Assembly (NCBI RefSeq): GCF_002257665.1
Contig: NZ_MQWB01000001.1
Span: forward strand, 2,215,711-2,279,710
DNA: 64,000 bases
Source: Rubricoccus marinus
GTDB lineage: Bacteria; Bacteroidota; Rhodothermia; Rhodothermales; Rubricoccaceae
Direction: 5' to 3'
In this document: one piece after another, positions 24,072-37,734 of the stretch
Layout of the letters: every line of letters begins with the position of its first letter
How positions within the stretch are numbered: position 1 is the stretch's first letter
Program-made: the position numbers and the translations under genes
The notes under the pieces: generated by a model
What the model was told of the DNA's origin: nothing
The model's database searches: none
What the model saw: only the letters and a program-made list of their open reading frames with translations

Positions 24072-24853
<782 letters not shown>

Positions 24854-24876
24854 GCCTCTGGCGTCTCCCTCTCCCT

Positions 24877-25452
24877 ATGCGTTTTCTCATCTTCGCTCTC
24901 GTCCTCGCCTCCGCCTCGGCGTGCGCGCAGTCCACGCCGGAGGCGCCCACTGAGGCGCTGGACCTTCGCGATCACACGACGATCCGCACCGCCGATGCGA
25001 CGCCAGAGGCGCCGCTCTCCGAGGGCTCTGGCTCCGCCGAGGAGTCCGACGCTGAGGCGGCGGTCCGCGACATCGTGGCTGGAGACGGCGTGCACGTGGT
25101 CCATTTCTGGGCGCCTTGGTGTGGCAACTCCATCAACGAGCTCCGCTCGGGCATCGCCGAGGTGGTCGACGCGAACCCCGACGTGACGTTTACCTACGTG
25201 ACCGTCCGCAACGACGGCGAAGACGGCGCCTCCACGCTCGCGCGGTACGGCGTGCCGGAGCGCGTAGAGGTTCTCGCGCATCCCGGCGGCAAGCCCGTCG
25301 TCTTCCTCGGGCGCCCTATCACGTGGACGCCTACCACGTGGGTGTTCAACCGCAACGGCACGCTCGCCTACGCCTTCAACTACGGCGAGGTCTCGCCCGT
25401 GCTTCTCTCCCAAGCCATCGCCGACGCCCAGAGCGATTGGCACCACGACTGA
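24877..25452 (+). CDS. thioredoxin-fold lipoprotein with a single-cysteine WCGNS site
   Basis: 191 residues. Signal peptide MRFLIFALVLASASAC with a lipobox Cys at 16, an acidic linker, then a thioredoxin-like domain: VHVVHFWAPWCGNSINELRSGIAEVVDANPDVTFTYVTV. The CxxC of TlpA/ResA proteins is reduced to CGNS, so only the first Cys remains. The cis-Pro region TWTPTTWVFNRNGTLAYAFNYGEV is kept. Such a site could act as a thiol peroxidase or glutathionyl-type exchanger, but not as a dithiol oxidoreductase. It lies 5 bases before a paralogue without signal peptide. Confidence 0.75.
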   Translation: MRFLIFALVLASASACAQSTPEAPTEALDLRDHTTIRTADATPEAPLSEGSGSAEESDAEAAVRDIVAGDGVHVVHFWAPWCGNSINELRSGIAEVVDANPDVTFTYVTVRNDGEDGASTLARYGVPERVEVLAHPGGKPVVFLGRPITWTPTTWVFNRNGTLAYAFNYGEVSPVLLSQAIADAQSDWHHD

Positions 25453-25457
25453 TCCCT

Positions 25458-25907
25458 GTGTCTGAGTTCCCGTTTTCTCCCCCCTCCACCGACGCCGAGC
25501 GCGCCGTCGCTACCGCCGTCGCCAGAGGTGGCATCCAGGTCGTCGTGTTCTGGGCCGACTGGTGCGGCAACTCCATCTCGCAACTGGAGCGCGGCCTGGC
25601 CGACGCCATCGCCGAGCACGAGGACGTGGGCTTCACCTTCGTCTCGCTCTGGGCCTCTGGCGCCAGCGGCCTGGACACGTTGCGGGCGTACGGCATCCCC
25701 GAGCGCGCCGAGGTCGTCGCGCAGCCCGGCGTGGGGCAGGACGCGCCGAAGGAGTACCGCGACACGCAGTTCCTTGGCCTTCCCGTCACGTGGATCCCCA
25801 CGACCTGGGTGTTCCGCGAAGGCCGGCTCGCGTACGCCTTCAACTACGGCGAGGTCACGCACGAGCAACTAGACGCCGCCATCGAAGGCGCGAAGAGCGC
25901 CTGGTAA
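25458..25907 (+). CDS. thioredoxin-fold protein, cytosolic paralogue with WCGNS site
   Basis: 149 residues, GTG start, no signal peptide. Domain IQVVVFWADWCGNSISQLERGLADAIAEHEDVGFTFVSLW ... VTWIPTTWVFREGRLAYAFNYGEVTHEQLDAAIEGA aligns along its length with the preceding lipoprotein, including CGNS and the AYAFNYGEV strand, so the pair arose by tandem duplication. Together they may place the same chemistry on both sides of the membrane. The in-frame sequence before 25458 overlaps the previous gene and is not family-like. Confidence 0.72.
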   Translation: MSEFPFSPPSTDAERAVATAVARGGIQVVVFWADWCGNSISQLERGLADAIAEHEDVGFTFVSLWASGASGLDTLRAYGIPERAEVVAQPGVGQDAPKEYRDTQFLGLPVTWIPTTWVFREGRLAYAFNYGEVTHEQLDAAIEGAKSAW

Positions 25908-27404: not shown

Positions 27405-28010
27405 CTAGGCGTCCACGCCGGGCACGCGGGGCAGCGCGACGGCTCGGCTGCTGAGGTCCGCGAGGTTCAACTCCACCGCCGCAGGCTGGCCTTCAAAGGC
27501 GTAGGTGAAGACGACGGCCTCTGGCGAGACCCGGAAATCGCCCAGGTCGGAATCGAAGCGCTCCACGAGCGTGCGGCGTCCTGTCCCGTCGGGCGACACG
27601 ACGACGAGGCTGCGCTCGTCTCTCGCTGTCAGTTGCTCGTCGCCGTCGGTGTCGCGCGCGACGACGGTGTAGACGACCGCGCGCGTGTCCGTCTCCCCCG
27701 CTGTCACGTCTCGGCGGTCGAGGATGCGCGCCGCGTTGCTCGGGAAGAGCCAGCGGCCCTGGCGGGCCTCGGTGTCGTAGAACAACACGTTGACGGTCGC
27801 GCCTGACGGGTCAGAATACGAGGAGCGACCTCGCGAGCTCTCCGACGTGACCCTAGCGCCCAGGTCTGCCGTCAGCACCGGCGTTCCGGCCACGCGCTGG
27901 AAGTCTTGCAACGTGACCTCTGGCGCGTCGCTATCGTCAGGGGCCGCGTCGGCGCGGCATCCGCCAATGGCGAGCATAAACAGGAGCGCGGTGGCGAGGA
28001 AAGCAGGCAT
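27405..28010 (-). CDS. lipoprotein of unknown function
   Basis: 201 residues. Signal peptide with lipobox IGGC (Cys18), then a beta-rich domain ([89 protein letters not shown]) that reads like a partial propeller or jelly roll. No family recognised. It is the last gene of the minus-strand envelope operon, 78 bases after the PEGA gene, so it may be a partner of that complex. Confidence 0.65.
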
Positions 28011-28088
28011 CGGTCGGGCGAGGGGTTCGCGGGTCGAGACGTACGCCCTCGCCAGAAGATGCGCCTCTGGCGCCAGAGGCCCGTCGCT

Positions 28089-28886
28089 CTACCGGATCGC
28101 GAAGCGGATCGCGAGGATGCCGAGGCTGGCGGTGGAGACGCCGAGCGCGACGCCAGAGATCGTGTCGTAGCGGATCGCGTCGTCGCGGAGGTCGTCGTTG
28201 CCGCGCAGCATGCTCGTCGTGCCGCGGTACTGGTCGTCGGCGGCGTCCGCCTGGAACTTGTAGTGCACCGCGACGGCGCCAGCGGCGATGGCTGCAACGC
28301 CGAAGCCGATGTCGAGCGCCGTCCGCGCCGTGTTGCGTCGCTGCGTGGGGAGCGCGTACGCGACGAGGTCCGCCTCCGTCGCGCCATCCGGCCGGAGGAC
28401 GAGCGCGACCTTGCCGCCGGCCTCTGGCGCGGCGACGGACGCATCGGCGTAGCCGTCCAACGAGGCCACCAGCCGACCACGGAGCGGCTCCGGGCGGTCC
28501 AGCACGAGCGGCGTGACGCCGAGGGCCTCTTGCGTGCCATCGGGGTGGACCAGCAGCACCTCGGCGTGCAGCGGCAGCGACTCGATGCGCGTCCTCACGG
28601 GGAGGTCCAGCGCGAGCGTCAGCGTCTCGCCAGAGGCCACGGCTGCGCTCGCATCCGCGCGGCGCGCGTCCCACCCCACGCCGGCCTCCACGAGCGCGAC
28701 GGCGTAGGTCTGCGCCGCGAGCGCGAACGGCCCTTCGGACGCGGCGCCCAGCACCACGCCGTCCGCGACGACGAGTGCCTCTGGCGTCGAGGTCTCGATG
28801 GCGAGGTAGCCCGGGGACTGCGCCGCGGCGGCGCCAGAGGCGAACAGGAACGCGAGGGTCAACAGGCGCATGGGGGTCTGGCGCAT
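28089..28886 (-). CDS. PEGA-like envelope protein with two C-terminal TMs
   Basis: 265 residues. Signal peptide (MRQTPMRLLTLAFLFASGAAAAQ) followed by about two PEGA-like repeats (GYLAIETSTPEALVVADGVVLGAASEGPFALAAQTYAVALV and LHAEVLLVHPDGTQEALGVTPLVLDRPEPLRGRLVASLDGYAD). There is a hydrophobic segment near 195-212 (ALDIGFGVAAIAAGAVAVHY) and another near the C terminus (ISGVALGVSTASLGILAIRFAI). PEGA domains bind envelope surfaces or carry sugars. The start is two bases after the stop of the BamB-like gene; an internal ATG five codons later is also possible. Confidence 0.65.
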   Translation of the reverse strand: MRQTPMRLLTLAFLFASGAAAAQSPGYLAIETSTPEALVVADGVVLGAASEGPFALAAQTYAVALVEAGVGWDARRADASAAVASGETLTLALDLPVRTRIESLPLHAEVLLVHPDGTQEALGVTPLVLDRPEPLRGRLVASLDGYADASVAAPEAGGKVALVLRPDGATEADLVAYALPTQRRNTARTALDIGFGVAAIAAGAVAVHYKFQADAADDQYRGTTSMLRGNDDLRDDAIRYDTISGVALGVSTASLGILAIRFAIR

Positions 28887-28888
28887 GG

Positions 28889-30040
28889 TCAGCGGGTGGC
28901 GACCCCGGCGGGCCGGAAGCCGTAGATGTAGTAGGGTTCGGCGAGGACGACGACGGTCCCGTCGGCCGAAGCGAGTCCAGCCGAGATGCGGCCTCGGAGT
29001 TCGTCGCGCCAGAGCTCGTCGCCAGAGGCCGCGTCGAGCGCGATCAGCTCACGGCGGTACGTGCCGACGTATACCATCCCGCCGGAAACCAACGGGGCGG
29101 CGCCCACGCCACCGTCGTAGCTCGTCGTCCACCGCTGCTCGCCCGTTTGTACGTCCCATGCCGTTACGGTCCCGTCCGTCGCGCCCGCGACGGCAATCCC
29201 GTCGGCGATGGAGGGCGTCCCCCAACGCGCCAGCGGCGCGCCCTGTGCGCTCCACAGCCGCTCGCCTCTGGCCCCGAAGGCCGCGACGCGGCCGCGCGTG
29301 GTCGGCACGACGAGCGTTTCGCCGTCGGTCGCGGGTGTGCGGTAGATCGGGGCGCCCGCGTCGGCGGTCCAGGCGATGTCACCCGACACTGGGTCGTAGG
29401 CGCGGACCGTCCCCTCGGTATCGGCCACGATGGCGAGAGCTCCCATCGCCAGAGGCGTCGCGCGGATCTGCGCCGTCGTGTCGGGCCTCTGGCGCCAGGC
29501 GACCGCCCCGTCAAAGCGGTCGATGCCGAGGACCGTCCCGTCGTTCGTCGCAGCGACGATCAGCGCGCCCATCACGAGCGGGCCGGCCATGAACGAGCCC
29601 TCGCGGACGGCCCACGCGCGACTCGCGGTCACGGCATTGTAGGCCAAGAGCCCGCCGCGCTCTTTGGTCAGCGGGATGTACATCATCGGCCCGGAGACCG
29701 CGATGGGCCCTTCGATGGCCTCGCCGACCTCGCCTTTCCCCGCGCCCTCGCCAGAGGCCGCGTCGAACACGAACACTTTCCCATCGCGCGTGCCGACGAC
29801 CATGCGGCCGTCGTCGGTCACCAAAGGCGCGTCGGGCCCGAAGCCGGCCTCGGCGTTGATGCGCCACACCTGCTCCAGCGGCGGGGCGGGAGCCGCTTCC
29901 GGCGCGGCCGCCGCGCCGAAGGGCTTGTTCACTTTGACGGTGTTGCAGCCCGCGAGCACGGCCAGCACGCACAGCGCGACGGCAAGGCCTCTGGCGCCAG
30001 AGGCGGGACGTGAGGGAGCGGGCTCGGGGAGAGTCGGCAT
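28889..30040 (-). CDS. BamB-like PQQ-type beta-propeller lipoprotein
   Basis: 383 residues. N-terminal hydrophobic segment with lipobox LAGC (Cys32), then at least seven PQQ-like blades with the repeated pattern VVGTRDGKVFVFDAASGE, TEGTVRAYDPVSGDIAW, ATDGTVTAWDVQTGEQRW and GTYRRELIALDAASGDELW. This is the architecture of BamB, an accessory of outer-membrane protein assembly. It follows the barrel protein with zero spacing (stop TAG at 30041, ATG at 30040), suggesting tight co-expression. A role with that barrel is inferred from the operon only. Confidence 0.8.
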   Translation of the reverse strand: MPTLPEPAPSRPASGARGLAVALCVLAVLAGCNTVKVNKPFGAAAAPEAAPAPPLEQVWRINAEAGFGPDAPLVTDDGRMVVGTRDGKVFVFDAASGEGAGKGEVGEAIEGPIAVSGPMMYIPLTKERGGLLAYNAVTASRAWAVREGSFMAGPLVMGALIVAATNDGTVLGIDRFDGAVAWRQRPDTTAQIRATPLAMGALAIVADTEGTVRAYDPVSGDIAWTADAGAPIYRTPATDGETLVVPTTRGRVAAFGARGERLWSAQGAPLARWGTPSIADGIAVAGATDGTVTAWDVQTGEQRWTTSYDGGVGAAPLVSGGMVYVGTYRRELIALDAASGDELWRDELRGRISAGLASADGTVVVLAEPYYIYGFRPAGVATR

Positions 30041-33000
30041 CTAGAAGTCGTACCCGAAGAAGAACTGCGTGAACGGCTCGCGCTCGTCGAACTGGAAGCC
30101 GTCCCAGAAGCGGTAGCCGACGTCGTAGCGGAGCACGAAGGCGCCGAAGAGGTTGAGCCGCGCCCCAGCGCCGACCGAGCCGAACGTCTTGCCGATGGTC
30201 TGGCTGTTGAGGTTGTACAGGTCCGGTCCCGTCCCGTCCTCGTTCCACGCGTGCGCGGCGTCCACGAACAGCGCGCCTTTCAGCCCCGCCACGCCAAAGG
30301 CGCCCAGGACGGGCGAGATCAGGTACGGCGCCTTCACGATGGGGAAGCGGAGCTCCTGCGACGTAAAGAGGAGCCGTTGCGCGCGGATGCGGAGCAGCGG
30401 GAAGCCTCTGGCGGACCACGAGCCGCCGATCAGGTTGTAGCGCGCGCGGCGGCCGACGTTTGCACGGGCCAGCCCCCACGAGGCGAACGTGATGTCGTTC
30501 GTGATCCGGGCGTAGTGCCGCACGTCCGCGTTCAGCGTGTAATAGCTCAGTGCTGACTGGAGCAGGTCTGTCGAGTAGCCCACGCCGGCGTTCGCGCGCC
30601 AGCCGTCGATGGGGCCGAACATGCTATACAGCGCGTTGTCGTGCGCGAGCGCCATGTAGTTCGAGAACGTCAGGGTCTTGAGCGTGTCGAACTGGAGGCC
30701 TCCGCTGCCGTCGAGGTCGCCGAGGAGTTCCTTGGAGCTGTAGCCCAGCGACGTGGAGAGGTCCACGCGGCGGAACGTGGAGAGCGGGTAGCTCACGAGT
30801 CCTAGCGCGCCGTGAATCTGCTGGTAGCTCGGGATCGCGTCTACCTGGTCGGGGTCGCCGCGGTCGAAGAGCGGGCCGGCGCGGCGGAAGACGCCATAGC
30901 CCACGTTCGCGCGGCGGCCGACATGGATGCGTGTCGCGGAAACGTTCAGCCCGTCCAAGAACGAGCGCCCGATGCGGCTGGAGCTGTAGGCGCTGACGTA
31001 GATCCGGTCATCGCCCAGCATGTCCGAAAACGCGATGGCAGCGCCACCGGCGTTGTAGTCCGCCGTCGCGGCGGTCGCAAAAGAGCCGCCGGCCACATCG
31101 AGCGCGTAGCGACGCTTGTATGGCCGGGCGCGCGTCGTGTCGCTCACCGCATAGCGCGGGTACTCCCACGCCTCACTCGGCGCGGGCGCCGTGACCGCGA
31201 GCCTCTGGCGCGGCTGCGCAAAGGCGGAGTCGGCGTCGAAGGCGCGAACGGTCCAGCGGAAGTCCTCGAACGCGGCGAACACGAGCGTGCTGTCGTCGGC
31301 CCAGAACGGGTCGTAGGCGGCGCCGGTGAACTCCGTGAGCTGGCGCACCTCGACAGCGGGCGGGGCCATCCCGCGAGAGGCAGAACCCGGTGCCAGAGGC
31401 TCGGCGGAGGTATCGGAGTCGGGTGCGAAGGCGACCGTTACGGTCTCGCCAGAGGCCGGAGCGGTGAGGCGCCGGGCGGCGCTGGCCGTCACGAACGGCT
31501 CGTCGAGCGGGGCCTCTGGCGAGAGGTCCGCCACCCAGAGGTTCTGCGCGCTGAACTTGCCGTCGGCCTCGCGGTGCGCGCTGACGTAGGCGAGGTGCTG
31601 GCCGTCCGGGCTGTAGCGCGGCGCCACGTCCACCTGCGGACCCGAGGTGATGTAGCCGATCTCGTCGGTCTCCAGGTCGTAGCGGAAGATGTTGAAGATG
31701 GGCGTGCCCGGTCCCGCGAACGCCGTGCGGTCGGACGAGAACGCGAGGCTCAGGCCGTCGGGCGAGAAGTCGGGGTCACGGTCGTCGTAGGCGTCGCGGG
31801 TGAGCTGGCGCAAGAGGCCCGCGCCGGCCGGGCCGCCGTCGCGGTCGTAGAGGAAGAGGTCTGCCAGGCCGTTCCGGCCAATGCCCGTAAACGCGACCTG
31901 CCGCCCATCTGCGGAGACCGTGGGCGAGTAGATGCCCACCAGTTCGTCGAAGCCCAGCATCTCCACGCGGCGCCTCTGGCGGAGATCGTGGAGGTGGATC
32001 ACGTCGCGCTCGCCGCGCTTGGTCACGAACGCGAGCAGGCCATCGTCGCTGACGTCCATCCGGCTCTCGAAGAGGTGGAACGCCTCGTAGTCCAGGTTTT
32101 TGCCCGCGCGGACGATGACCTCGGGCTTCGCCAGAGGCTCCAGGTCGGCGCCGACAGGCGTGGCGAGGATCTCGGAGTAGCCGCCGCGGTTGGCGACGCT
32201 CAGGACTTCGCGGCGCCCGTCCGGCCACGTGTGCACAACGGGCTTGAAGTGCGCGCCTCTGGCGGCCACAGGCCGCGAGGCGAGCGAGGGCACGTCGGCG
32301 TCTTCGAGCTTGGGGAGGTACTGCTCGCGGATCCACGTCCACCACTTGTCCGAGACGACGTGGAAGTCCTCGCCCATGACGTACTCCACGACTTTGGAGA
32401 AGTCGTCGTCGCGCCAGGAGTTCTCGATTAGGTCCAGGATGCGCTCCTCGCCGTACGTCTCGGCCACGAAGCGGCAGAACGCCTCGCCCTCCTTGTACAT
32501 CACGAAGGAGCCCGCGATGCGGTCCATGTCGTCGAGCTGTACGAAGAAGTTGGACGCGACGGCGTCGCGGATGATCATCTCGTGCTGGTGGTCCGGCTCG
32601 CCGCTCCAGTATTCCGCCAAGCCCTCGGTAAACCACAGCGGCACGAACCGATCCACCGGGCGGCGGTGGTCCCGGAGCACGCGCGCGAGCTTGTTGAACG
32701 TGAACACGTGCACCAGCTCGTGCTGGACGACACGCGTAAAGCGCTGCACGTTGCCATCGGCCGGGATGACCACGCGGCCTTTGAGGAACTCGAAAAAGCC
32801 GCCCACGCCGTCCGGTATAAAGCCGGGCGTCGTGTTGGTCTGCTTGAAGTGCAGGTTGCTCGCGTAGAAGAGCATCGGCACCCGGTGGTTGAACGAGAAC
32901 GCGAAGCGGTTCTCCAGTTCCACGTACGCCTCCTCTGCCGCCTGCGCCCCGATCTCGGCCAGTTCCCGCTCCTCCGGGTAGTAGTAGATGTCGAAGTGCT

Positions 33001-33190
33001 CGGTCTCCAGGATGTGCCAGTCGAAGTCGTCGTACTGAACTTTATTTCGCCCGAAGCCCTGCGCGTCGGCCTCTGGCGCCAGAGGCCCGACCACCAGTGC
33101 GAGCGTGAGCGCCGCCGCCAGGGGCGCGATGCGGGAAGAGACGAAACCGGCCCGGGCGCGAGGGCCGGGCCGGGGAGCGCGAGCGAACAT
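30041..33190 (-). CDS. outer-membrane barrel protein with metallopeptidase and TolB-propeller domains
   Basis: 1049 residues, signal peptide near the N terminus. Three parts can be seen. (1) A gluzincin-type peptidase domain, about residues 30-270, with the zinc motif HELVH in RVVQHELVHVFTFN and the downstream FTEGLAEYW. (2) A TolB/PD40 propeller, about 280-680, with repeats such as RDPDFSPDGLSLAFSSDRTAF and VAPRYSPDGQHLAYVSAHRE. (3) A C-terminal beta-barrel, about 700-1049, with alternating aromatic strands (FTSQELRFPIVKAPY, GARLNLFGAFVLRYDVGYRFWDGF) ending in FFFGYDF. The final Phe is typical of barrels assembled by BamA. Overall it resembles PD40-plus-barrel proteins of Rhodothermota. Head gene of the operon. 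Confidence 0.75.
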   Translation of the reverse strand: MFARAPRPGPRARAGFVSSRIAPLAAALTLALVVGPLAPEADAQGFGRNKVQYDDFDWHILETEHFDIYYYPEERELAEIGAQAAEEAYVELENRFAFSFNHRVPMLFYASNLHFKQTNTTPGFIPDGVGGFFEFLKGRVVIPADGNVQRFTRVVQHELVHVFTFNKLARVLRDHRRPVDRFVPLWFTEGLAEYWSGEPDHQHEMIIRDAVASNFFVQLDDMDRIAGSFVMYKEGEAFCRFVAETYGEERILDLIENSWRDDDFSKVVEYVMGEDFHVVSDKWWTWIREQYLPKLEDADVPSLASRPVAARGAHFKPVVHTWPDGRREVLSVANRGGYSEILATPVGADLEPLAKPEVIVRAGKNLDYEAFHLFESRMDVSDDGLLAFVTKRGERDVIHLHDLRQRRRVEMLGFDELVGIYSPTVSADGRQVAFTGIGRNGLADLFLYDRDGGPAGAGLLRQLTRDAYDDRDPDFSPDGLSLAFSSDRTAFAGPGTPIFNIFRYDLETDEIGYITSGPQVDVAPRYSPDGQHLAYVSAHREADGKFSAQNLWVADLSPEAPLDEPFVTASAARRLTAPASGETVTVAFAPDSDTSAEPLAPGSASRGMAPPAVEVRQLTEFTGAAYDPFWADDSTLVFAAFEDFRWTVRAFDADSAFAQPRQRLAVTAPAPSEAWEYPRYAVSDTTRARPYKRRYALDVAGGSFATAATADYNAGGAAIAFSDMLGDDRIYVSAYSSSRIGRSFLDGLNVSATRIHVGRRANVGYGVFRRAGPLFDRGDPDQVDAIPSYQQIHGALGLVSYPLSTFRRVDLSTSLGYSSKELLGDLDGSGGLQFDTLKTLTFSNYMALAHDNALYSMFGPIDGWRANAGVGYSTDLLQSALSYYTLNADVRHYARITNDITFASWGLARANVGRRARYNLIGGSWSARGFPLLRIRAQRLLFTSQELRFPIVKAPYLISPVLGAFGVAGLKGALFVDAAHAWNEDGTGPDLYNLNSQTIGKTFGSVGAGARLNLFGAFVLRYDVGYRFWDGFQFDEREPFTQFFFGYDF

Positions 33191-34269: not shown

Positions 34270-34287
34270 GCCTCTGGCGCCAGAGGC
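34270..34287. repeat. palindromic doublet between convergent genes
   Basis: GCCTCTGGCGCCAGAGGC, touching the last base of the Pgi/Pmi stop codon on the minus strand and lying downstream of the small lysine-rich gene on the plus strand. Confidence 0.85.
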
Positions 34288-35333
34288 TACCCCGCGAGGA
34301 CGCCCTTGAGCTTCTGGATCGTCTCCACGGGCGTGGGGTCCACGCCTTTGCGCATGGCGAGCCAGAAGCTGGCCCAGTCTCCCAACTGCACGAGCGAGAG
34401 CATCCGCGCCAGAGGCGTCTCGCATTCGCTCTCGATCTCGCGCCAGCCGGCGACCCTCCGCGCGACGAGTTCTCGCGTGATCTCGAAGCGACGACGCACC
34501 TGCTTGTGGTCGCCTGCGTCGGTCAGCGCGAGGATCTGCATCCGGTCCGAGACCTCTGGCGGGATGGACTCGAAGGCCATGATCTCGTTGTGGTCCAGTT
34601 CGGGGAAGACATTGCCGTAGGCGGGATGCTTCGCGTTCTCGTGGATCTGCGTGCGCCAGCGCATCCCAACGGGTTCCAGCAGGCCGGGACCGGTGTAGAC
34701 GACGGGCAGGTGTCCCTCCATCGCGCCGGAGACTTCGCGCGCGAGGTTGTTCCGGTCGTCCTGGTTGTAGGCGTCGGCACGCTCGCGGGCCTCTCCGAGG
34801 GCGGTCAAAAACTCGGAGTCCGTCAGCGAAAGCTGTCCCCCATCGCGAAAGGCGCGGAGGAGCACGCCGAGCGAGTAGCCCAGCGCCGCTCGCGGCTGCA
34901 AGCCGCCCGAGATCGTCACGACCGGCCGGCCGGCCATGCGCTCCGCCAGAGGCCCGCCCGATGTGATCGCAGCAGTCCGCGCACCGGAGGCCTCGGCGGC
35001 ATCCAAGCCGCTCAGCGTCTCCTCCGTCCCGCCGGAATAGGACGACGCGATGACGAGCGTCCGCTCTCCCACCCACGCGGGTAGGTCATAGGCGCGGTTC
35101 ACCACCACCGGCACCGTGGCCTCTGGCGCCGCAAGCGCGCGCACCAAGTCGGCGCCGATGGCCGAGCCCCCCATGCCGAGCACGACGATGCCGTTGAGGT
35201 CATCGGCGTCGAGGCCGAAGGCGTGCGCGTCCGCGCCGCGCTGCCAGCCCTCGGCGAGGTGATCCGGGAAGGCGGCGATGGCGCCGCGCATGTCTTGGGG
35301 ATCGAGGTCGGCGTCGAACAGGGAGCGGGGCAT
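34287..35333 (-). CDS. bifunctional phosphoglucose/phosphomannose isomerase
   Basis: 348 residues, cytoplasmic. Interconverts glucose-6-P or mannose-6-P with fructose-6-P. Two SIS-like halves: GIVVLGMGGSAIGADLVRAL and LVIASSYSGGTEETLSGLDAAEASGARTAAITSGGPLAE in the first, GHLPVVYTGPGLLEPVGMRWRTQIHENAKHPAYGNVFPELDHNEIMAFE in the second. The ENAKHPAYxNVFPELDHNE block with the catalytic His and Glu is the family signature. Length fits the archaeal/Bacteroidota type bifunctional enzyme. No standard pgi gene is seen in the window. Confidence 0.9.
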   Translation of the reverse strand: MPRSLFDADLDPQDMRGAIAAFPDHLAEGWQRGADAHAFGLDADDLNGIVVLGMGGSAIGADLVRALAAPEATVPVVVNRAYDLPAWVGERTLVIASSYSGGTEETLSGLDAAEASGARTAAITSGGPLAERMAGRPVVTISGGLQPRAALGYSLGVLLRAFRDGGQLSLTDSEFLTALGEARERADAYNQDDRNNLAREVSGAMEGHLPVVYTGPGLLEPVGMRWRTQIHENAKHPAYGNVFPELDHNEIMAFESIPPEVSDRMQILALTDAGDHKQVRRRFEITRELVARRVAGWREIESECETPLARMLSLVQLGDWASFWLAMRKGVDPTPVETIQKLKGVLAG

Positions 35334-35547
35334 GGGACGGAGAGGAATAGAGGGATGCGCGATGGAGGGATACGGCCTCTGGCGGAGCGCCGCGCCAGAG
35401 GCTCAGTATCGGCACGGGCGCGGGAATCCGTAGAGGCCGCTGCGGATGTGTTCGAGAGCGAAGCGCCAGAGGCTCCTGGCGATGTCGAACGAGGCGATGT
35501 CAACCGACTCCCTTTCCCCTGTGCAGGGCCAACACTCGTTAGATATC

Positions 35548-35716
35548 GTCATTCCCGCGCACGCGGGAATTCAGGGTGACGACTGCCAGGGGGCGCCGGT
35601 CTCGAACGCTCAGGAAGGAGCGATGCAACGGGACCGCCTCTGGCGCGCGTCCGGCGCGAATCCGGCCGGCGGGAAATTTGCCCGGTACTCTGGATTCCCG
35701 CCTTCGCGGGAATGAC
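35548..35716. repeat. REPIN-like pair of ATTCCC-N8-GGGAAT elements
   Basis: Left element 35551-35570 (ATTCCCGCGCACGCGGGAAT) preceded by GTC. Right element 35694-35713 (ATTCCCGCCTTCGCGGGAAT) preceded by CTGG and followed by GAC. The flanks are inverted, so the pair faces each other across 123 bases. The 6-8-6 form is that of the Neisseria dRS3 element and of widespread GTCATTCCCGCG repeats. Confidence 0.75.
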
Positions 35717-35852
35717 GCCGGGTGGGGACGGTGCCCGGATGCAAGAGGGACGCTCCAAGTGACACCGGAGGCAAGGCGACGTGCAGCACTGGCCCCGGCG
35801 CATCGTATCCAACCGGCCTCTGGCGCCAGAGGCCGGGCGCGCATCCGCCATT

Positions 35853-35894
35853 GGCCATTCCCTACTGACCACTCCCTACTGGCCACTCCCCACA
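35853..35894. repeat. three degenerate 14-base tandem units
   Basis: GGCCATTCCCTACT, GACCACTCCCTACT and GGCCACTCCCCACA in direct succession, ending 10 bases before the ptsI stop. The unit length is twice seven, like the heptamer repeats elsewhere. Confidence 0.85.
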
Positions 35895-35904
35895 AGCCTC
35901 TTAC

Positions 35905-37734
35905 CTACCGCCGAACAGCGTCGTCGGCGCCGAGAAGCGCGGCGAGGTCGCGGTTGTGGCAGACGAGCCAGTAGTCCAGCAGGCGACCAACCGCGTCGGC
36001 GTCGGGCTGGCGGAGGGCGCGTGTGGCGAGGTCGCGGGCCTCGTCCATGGTGAGCGCGCGGAGCACGCGCTTGACGAGCGAGAGGTACGCCGGGCTGGCC
36101 GAGAGCGAGTCAACGCCGAGGCCGACGAGGAGCGGCGTGATGCGCGGATCGGCGGCCATCTCGCCGCAGACGCTGACGGGGATGCCTCTGGCGTGCGCGG
36201 CCTCCACCGTCTGCGCGATGAGGCCGAGCACGGCCGGGTGCAACTCGCGGTAGCGCCCTGCCACCAAGTCGTTGCCGCGATCCACGGCGAGGGTGAACTG
36301 CGTGAGGTCGTTCGTGCCGATGGAGAAAAAGTCCGAGACGCGAGCGAATCGGTCTGCCATAAGGGCCACGGCGGGCACCTCCACCATGATGCCGACCTGG
36401 ATGTCGCTGCGGTGCTCCACTCCCGCCTCTTCCAACTCAGCGATCACCTCGCGGATGGCCGCGCGCGTCAGGCGCACCTCGTCCAACGACGAGACCATGG
36501 GCAGGAGCAGCCGGGCCGGCGCGTCGGTCTCGCCAGAGGCCGCGGCGGCGCGCAGGATGGCACGGATCTGCGGGCGCAGGATCTCAGGCTTGTCTAGCAG
36601 GATGCGGAGCCCGCGCCAGCCCAGGAACGGGTTGGCCTCGCGGCGCGCCATGGGCAACACCTTGTCGCCGCCGAGGTCCAACAACCGGAACGTGACGGCG
36701 TGCGGCGCCGCGGCGGCGACGGCATCTCGGTAAACCTCGAACTGCTGCTCCTCGTCCAGAGCGCGGCCCTGGGTCAGGAACAGCATCTCGGTCCGGAACA
36801 GGCCTACGCCCTCGGCGCCGAAGGTGTGCAGGAGCGGGAATTCCTGGGGGAACTCCACGTTCGCCTGGAGCGAGACGTGGTGGCCGTCGGCGGTCTCGGA
36901 CGGCTCGGCGACCACCTCGTCGCGCGTGGCTTCCAGGTTCGCGAAGCGCGCCTGCTTTTCCGTGTAGGCCTCTCGCGTCTCGTCGGTCGGGTTGACGATC
37001 ACGCGGCCGGAGAAGCCGTCCACGATCACTTCGTCGCCGGGGTTCACCTGCGCGGCCAGGCCGTGGAGGCTGACCGACGTGGGCACGCCAAGCGCGCGGG
37101 CCATGATGGAGACGTGACTCGTCGGCCCCCCGTGGTCTAGCACGACGCCGAGCACGCCGTGCCGGCTGAACAGCAGCACGTCCGCCGCCGTCAGGTTCTT
37201 GGCGATAACGATGCGGTTCTTGTCGATCCGCGAGACCGCCCGGCCATGCTGGAGGTTGCGCAGCACGCGGTTCTGCACATCGAAAAAATCGCCCGCGCGG
37301 TCACGGAGCAGCGGGCTGTCGCTGGCGAGGAGCCTCTGGCGGTGCTCGTCCAGCACTTCCTGCGTGGCCCAGCCGGCGCCCATGCGCCGCTTGCGGATAA
37401 AGTCGTGGACGCGGTCGTAGAACTGGCTGTCGCGGAGGATGAGCGCCTGGGCGTCGAAGATGCCTGCCGAGCCGTCGCCGAGCTTCTGACGCGCGATCAG
37501 GCGGATCTTGCCCAACTCACGCTCACTGCGCGCGATGGCCCGCTCGAACCGCTCGGCCTCCGCCTCGATCTCGTCCTCTCCCAACTCCTGCGGATCCGCC
37601 TGGTACGCCCCGCCCGCGTACAAATACACCGGCCCCACCGCTACGCCCGGCGAAACGCCGATGCCGTCCACGACGATCTCCCCGCGCGTCTGAGCGGCGG
37701 CGTCCGCGGCGTCGTGGAGTTCAGGGAGCGGCAT
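35905..37734 (-). CDS. ptsI: PTS enzyme I (phosphoenolpyruvate-protein phosphotransferase)
   Basis: 609 residues, cytoplasmic. Transfers phosphate from PEP to HPr. The N-terminal HPr-binding and phospho-His domain has His207 in LDHGGPTSHVSIMARALGVP. The C-terminal PEP-binding barrel has LGWRGLRILLDKPEILRPQIRAILRAA, IQVGIMVEVPAVALMADRFARVSDFFSIGTNDLTQFTLAVDRGND and VSVCGEMAADPRITPLLVGLGVDSLS. Complete length. It lies downstream of ptsH on the same strand. No sugar-specific EII gene is in the window, so a regulatory rather than transport role is possible. Confidence 0.93.
   Translation of the reverse strand: MPLPELHDAADAAAQTRGEIVVDGIGVSPGVAVGPVYLYAGGAYQADPQELGEDEIEAEAERFERAIARSERELGKIRLIARQKLGDGSAGIFDAQALILRDSQFYDRVHDFIRKRRMGAGWATQEVLDEHRQRLLASDSPLLRDRAGDFFDVQNRVLRNLQHGRAVSRIDKNRIVIAKNLTAADVLLFSRHGVLGVVLDHGGPTSHVSIMARALGVPTSVSLHGLAAQVNPGDEVIVDGFSGRVIVNPTDETREAYTEKQARFANLEATRDEVVAEPSETADGHHVSLQANVEFPQEFPLLHTFGAEGVGLFRTEMLFLTQGRALDEEQQFEVYRDAVAAAAPHAVTFRLLDLGGDKVLPMARREANPFLGWRGLRILLDKPEILRPQIRAILRAAAASGETDAPARLLLPMVSSLDEVRLTRAAIREVIAELEEAGVEHRSDIQVGIMVEVPAVALMADRFARVSDFFSIGTNDLTQFTLAVDRGNDLVAGRYRELHPAVLGLIAQTVEAAHARGIPVSVCGEMAADPRITPLLVGLGVDSLSASPAYLSLVKRVLRALTMDEARDLATRALRQPDADAVGRLLDYWLVCHNRDLAALLGADDAVRR

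Follow-up and report, generated by a model that had tools for sequence, protein, structure and literature searches.

We found that three adjacent genes of Rubricoccus marinus, here designated A, B and C, are a genuine conserved gene unit, which probably specifies a second, protease-equipped machine building or policing the outer membrane. They lie in a 64-kb stretch of DNA (the whole analysed stretch, hereafter the window) from a 4.43 Mb genome assembly (Table 1). An earlier note on this DNA had described a four-gene operon, and all four genes were recovered with the positions and spacings it gave: the ATG of B abuts the TAG of A (0 bases), and B and C are separated by 2 bases. We measured 78 bases between C and ORF D. 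The note gave no strand; all four genes are on the minus strand.

Table 1. Genes of the A-B-C locus and features of protein A (window positions)
Feature	Position	Strand	Description	Evidence
Gene A	30041-33190	minus	1049 aa, peptidase-propeller-Omp85 barrel, N-terminal signal helix	Pfam, 60-orthologue alignment, AF2, Foldseek
Gluzincin-type peptidase domain of A	32303-33034	minus	residues ~53-296; model helices 148-174 and 185-196	Peptidase_MA_2
HELVH zinc-binding motif of A	32708-32722	minus	residues 157-161	
WFTEGLAEY motif of A	32609-32635	minus	residues 186-194; Glu189 is the putative third zinc ligand	
TolB/PD40-type beta-propeller of A	31193-32275	minus	residues ~306-666, ~six blades	PD40, TolB profile, Foldseek
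16-stranded Omp85 barrel of A	30044-31105	minus	residues 696-1049, terminal FFFGYDF	
Omp85 loop-6 motif GGSWSARGF of A	30401-30427	minus	residues 922-930, between strands 11/12	
Gene B	28889-30040	minus	383 aa, BamB-like propeller lipoprotein, lipobox Cys32	
Gene C	28089-28886	minus	265 aa, signal helix, two PEGA-like domains, hydrophobic helical hairpin 182-264	
ORF D	27405-28010	minus	201 aa, lipoprotein-like, outside the conserved unit	

The domain composition proposed for the lead protein, i.e., a gluzincin, a TolB-type propeller and an outer-membrane barrel, was recovered by Pfam, AlphaFold2 (AF2) and Foldseek. In Pfam, Peptidase_MA_2 matches residues 146-288 with 33.8 bits, just above its curated cut-off of 32.4, PD40 is matched in four stretches (66.6 bits, also above the curated cut-off), and Omp85 covers residues 811-1049 (32.5 bits against a curated cut-off of 24). 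The AF2 model, computed with 60 orthologues as input (mean pLDDT 80, pTM 0.77), runs from a signal helix through a mixed alpha-beta peptidase domain and a propeller (residues 306-666) to 16 strands (696-1047), with the HExxH motif on helix 148-174 and Glu189 on helix 185-196. Foldseek aligned this model with BamA barrels in the PDB (TM normalized by target length ≤0.64, E ~4e-9) and with TolB (E ~3e-10). Thus, the barrel prediction, on whose failure the earlier note had staked its reading, holds by strand count, structural match and Pfam Omp85 alike. No POTRA domain was detected in A by Pfam or in the AF2 model, residues 53-666 being taken up by the peptidase and the propeller.

Both elements that define a gluzincin, HExxH and a downstream glutamate ligand, are present in the A sequence. 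His157, Glu158, His161, Glu189 and Glu193 are identical in all 60 aligned orthologues, which come from several phyla, as is Arg928 of the L6 motif, which is followed by Gly929 (58/60) and an F, Y or W at residue 930 (55/60). In BamA, the L6 motif VRGF sits between strands 11 and 12. Given the invariant zinc-site residues and Arg928 and the near-constant Gly929, we conclude from the alignment that the zinc protease of A is probably active and the Omp85 signature intact.

The BamB-like lipoprotein partner was likewise recognizable. B matches PQQ_2/BamB in Pfam (1.1e-40), its sequence profile matches BamB structures, and it combines two features of BamB, a lipoprotein signal, with the lipobox Cys32 invariant across 32 orthologues, and a PQQ-type propeller. 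Against the BamB profile TIGR03300 it scores 158.4 bits, far below the curated cut-off of 285.2, though it is still the top match in its own genome. The same applies across 40 genomes of the order: no protein exceeds the cut-off in any of them, and the best, sub-threshold, BamB matches are the B-type genes next to A. In three genomes lacking A (G155, G203 and G207), there is no BamB match of any strength. As for C, Pfam PEGA is matched by 37 of 50 aligned orthologues (best 2e-20), while the window protein itself has no Pfam match. Its AF2 model (pLDDT 92.6) shows, besides a signal helix, a pair of PEGA-like beta domains and two long helices, the latter bearing hydrophobic stretches according to hydropathy analysis; thus, C probably resides in the inner membrane. 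Foldseek returned only generic beta-sandwich domains for C, among them usher plugs and NTE domains. The presence of a probable PEGA protein in the unit is supported by PEGA in the orthologues and by the co-occurrence with A described below.

A scan of the genome collection yielded at least 508 confirmed relatives of A; near relatives are labelled, for example, Rubricoccaceae, Rubrivirga or Rhodothermales. Among the matches listed, 80 loci were retained, from Rhodothermales, Ignavibacteria, Kryptonia, Calditrichota and KSB1; these are not independent lineages, yet their range is multi-phylum. A Rhodothermus MAG (L096) is among the carriers of the unit. Where at least 1.5 kb of sequence is available beyond A, the next gene is B in 70 of 72 loci (adjacent genes only, a distant unrelated match at L130 being left out), and where at least 2.5 kb is available, C follows in 59 of 65 loci. 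In 296 sampled genomes of the GTDB phylum, A was detected in 70 (E ≤ 1e-100) and C in 64: both occur in 63 genomes, A only in 7, C only in 1 and neither in 225, so that 63 of the 71 genomes with either gene possess both (Fisher p ~4e-55, with genomes treated as unrelated). The unit is missing from relatives in family f7 of the order and family f14 of the class, which manage without it; therefore, it is not universally required. Among the 80 listed loci, the wider synteny includes ptsI and pgi upstream and a CvpA-like gene downstream, names which we take from our reading of the sequences, each recurring in 29-40 loci, and no cargo gene is linked to the unit. The shared housekeeping synteny and the lack of a linked cargo gene point to a general role for A-B-C. 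In the window, the genes upstream of A (34287-37734) encode a bifunctional phosphoglucose/mannose isomerase-like protein and a PTS enzyme I-like protein, and such genes are present at about half of the listed A loci, across phyla.

ORF D does not belong to this unit. We found no D homologue in the 80 A-containing loci among the matches listed, and relatives of D were detected in only 2 of 8 other genomes of the family, on contigs other than that of A where A could be placed (in G006, the D relative is on contig C3 and A on C11). D was therefore rejected as a fourth member. Thus, of the four-gene operon and the co-occurrence expected of it, the A-B-C part stood, while D dropped out. On its own account, D is a lipoprotein-like ORF that only a few members of the family carry.

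Protein A is not the cell's BamA. It scores 18.7 bits against the BamA profile TIGR03303 (cut-off 297), whereas a canonical BamA encoded elsewhere in the genome reaches 342.6 bits; a further protein elsewhere matches the profile with 145 bits. Nor can A be taken for TolB: it scores 74.5 bits, under the equivalog cut-off, and only its propeller is TolB-like. No protein of the genome exceeds the TolB cut-off. As far as fold and homology are concerned, the description of the locus as paralogous to parts of the Bam and Tol systems is correct.

The genome also encodes three proteins that resemble A in the N-terminal half and keep HExxH, L034 (4775-8347), L035 (5504-9022) and L036 (4807-8127); L034 and L035 match Omp85 above the cut-off and carry RG(F/Y/S) motifs near the C-terminus. 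We found no B or C homologue next to L034-L036 or their counterparts L038-L042 in relatives, and a maximum-likelihood tree, from which L036 was omitted as too gappy, separates the A orthologues from the placeable paralogues by a 100/100 branch. On these grounds the paralogues were rejected as carriers of the A-B-C unit. Proteins of the L034-L036 type also occur in genomes of the order and class that lack A.

That such paralogues do without B and C fits the idea that A is an outer-membrane-anchored envelope protease, with the barrel as anchor and the propeller as a substrate gate, and with no assembly activity. Peptidases gated by a propeller are a common type, and tricorn and S9 peptidases appear among the propeller matches. 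In PlpD, whose enzyme domain is periplasmic, no protein assembly or translocation is known, unlike in other studied Omp85 proteins, so that fusion of an enzyme to an Omp85 barrel does not by itself imply a role in assembly (PMC11116518). This reading appears rather unlikely to us, as A keeps the L6 motif and the aromatic C-terminus of assembly factors and is tightly linked to a BamB relative.

We prefer to view A-B-C as an Omp85-type outer-membrane machine which may act alongside the ordinary BamA and have built-in proteolytic quality control of outer-membrane proteins (OMPs), a proposal whose chances we judge to be even. That the locus encodes an assembly, export or processing machine, as suggested earlier, can reasonably be inferred from the Omp85 barrel. 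The quality-control part follows a working analogy with BepA, which degrades OMPs stalled on BAM (PMC8423444, PMC13067283). In the proposed mechanism, A would be inserted in the outer membrane via its 16-stranded BamA-type barrel, with the TolB-like propeller and the presumably active zinc protease hanging into the periplasm in place of POTRA. B, anchored as a lipoprotein, would probably dock on A, and the helical hairpin of C would probably hold this protein in the inner membrane, with its PEGA domains reaching across. Client barrel or surface proteins might first be taken up by the propellers, then be folded or handed on at the seam of the barrel of A, and be clipped or degraded on site by the fused protease; the whole would amount to BamA, BamB and a BepA-like protease in one unit. 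The analysis establishes the genes and their conserved linkage, the domains of the proteins, the invariant active site of A, its predicted barrel with the loop-6 motif and its presence alongside a canonical BamA; complex formation, the periplasmic side of the protease, the membrane location of C, the client class and insertase activity are what we infer. Besides the precedent of PlpD, two observations count against the assembly reading: BamB binds BamA through POTRA (PMC13067283), the part that A lacks, and the f7 and f14 relatives have no A-B-C.

The fusion of the barrel to a protease would also suit a secretion or processing channel, in which exported proteins would travel through or past the barrel and be cleaved by A as a sheddase or a pro-peptide remover, with B and C as docking factors; protein translocation is an activity of TpsB-type Omp85 relatives (PMC4104836). 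We consider this unlikely: no cargo gene is linked to the unit in the 80 listed loci, the inheritance of A-B-C looks housekeeping, and the barrel of A is BamA-type and not an obvious pore. A role in lipid or LPS transport, keeping outer-membrane lipid balance while the protease trims partners, seems very improbable; C may bridge the membranes, and passages of PMC11014939 and PMC11116518 tie TAM and PlpD to lipids, but the unit encodes no lipid-transfer groove domain of the TamB/AsmA type and has no other pointer to lipids.

With regard to known systems, A-B-C shares with E. coli BAM (BamA-BamB) the 16-stranded barrel, the L6 RG(F/Y) between strands 11/12 and a BamB-like PQQ propeller lipoprotein. 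It differs in that A has no POTRA, carries a fused protease and a second propeller and coexists with a separate canonical BamA, and B scores under the equivalog cut-off for BamB. BepA, LoiP and YcaL, M48 periplasmic metalloproteases, are, as A is predicted to be, envelope zinc proteases, and BepA acts on BAM-stalled OMPs, but these are separate proteins of another peptidase family, whereas in A the Peptidase_MA_2 domain and the barrel belong to a single polypeptide. PlpD (patatin-Omp85) shares with A the fusion of an enzyme domain to an Omp85 barrel; its enzyme is a patatin lipase with no known BamB-like partner, while A has a gluzincin and a propeller. The BAM of F. johnsoniae, from the same GTDB phylum, is also of a lineage-specific design, in that case with an extracellular canopy; BamB, a propeller and a metalloprotease go unmentioned in its description (PMC12611786).

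The propeller-barrel architecture itself was catalogued by Heinz and Lithgow (2014), whose main text names a WD40-Omp85 subfamily and likens it to a BamA-BamB fusion; the barrel-based Omp85 definition given there does not demand POTRA (PMC4104836). By that main-text description, WD40-Omp85 proteins possess, like A, a TolB-like propeller N-terminal to the Omp85 barrel and no POTRA, but the main text mentions neither a gluzincin or HExxH domain in them nor a BamB-like or PEGA gene linked to them, and it applies "metalloprotease" only to a PF00149 subfamily. According to this text, the subfamilies other than Lipo and TamA are scattered, in contrast to the conserved multi-phylum A-B-C triplet (PMC4104836). 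In the mostly non-subscription literature, we found no characterised peptidase-propeller-Omp85 protein and no account of its HExxH domain or of the A-B-C triplet. The earlier statement that no characterised example is known thus stands for function and not for the propeller-barrel architecture: the fold class of A was already known, whereas the peptidase domain and the B and C partners are not reported in the 2014 main text.

Separate from A-B-C, and possibly the bigger finding, is the abundance of the 10-mer GCCTCTGGCG, found in 227 copies in the window, e.g., at 28063-28080, 29987-30004 and 33069-33086, against 0.57 expected from shuffling. The 4.43 Mb genome contains 14,176 copies (7049/7127 on the two strands; reversed control 24/37), with a mean spacing of 280 bases, 73% of them within long ORFs in all frames. 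Each of the other 113 genomes of the order has no more than a background number, at most ~100 copies (36/63 in a congener), and the 10-mer is apparently confined to the species R. marinus within its order. Copies often form overlapping inverted pairs, GCCTCTGGCGCCAGAGGC (14) or CGCCAGAGGCCTCTGGCG (10), and one copy falls inside the L6 motif of A (30404-30413). The element resembles a DNA-uptake sequence or a HIP1-like element. The window also holds two adjacent related thioredoxin-like ORFs (24850-25907), in which WCGNS replaces the usual CxxC motif.

More broadly, and with somewhat less than even confidence, we propose that a BAM-like second machine may exist across several FCB phyla. In it, the place of POTRA would be taken by a protease and a TolB-type propeller, the BamB relative of the lineage would serve this machine and not BamA, and insertion and proteolytic quality control would be combined in one polypeptide. 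The envelope proteases with a known part in policing OMP assembly, DegP, BepA, YcaL and LoiP, are separate proteins, and how they reach BAM is only partly understood (PMC13067283). If the proposal is true, A would be a natural fusion showing how barrel and protease activities couple, and A-B-C would offer an explanation of the whereabouts of BamB in a Bacteroidota lineage, as well as a defined, testable three-protein complex.
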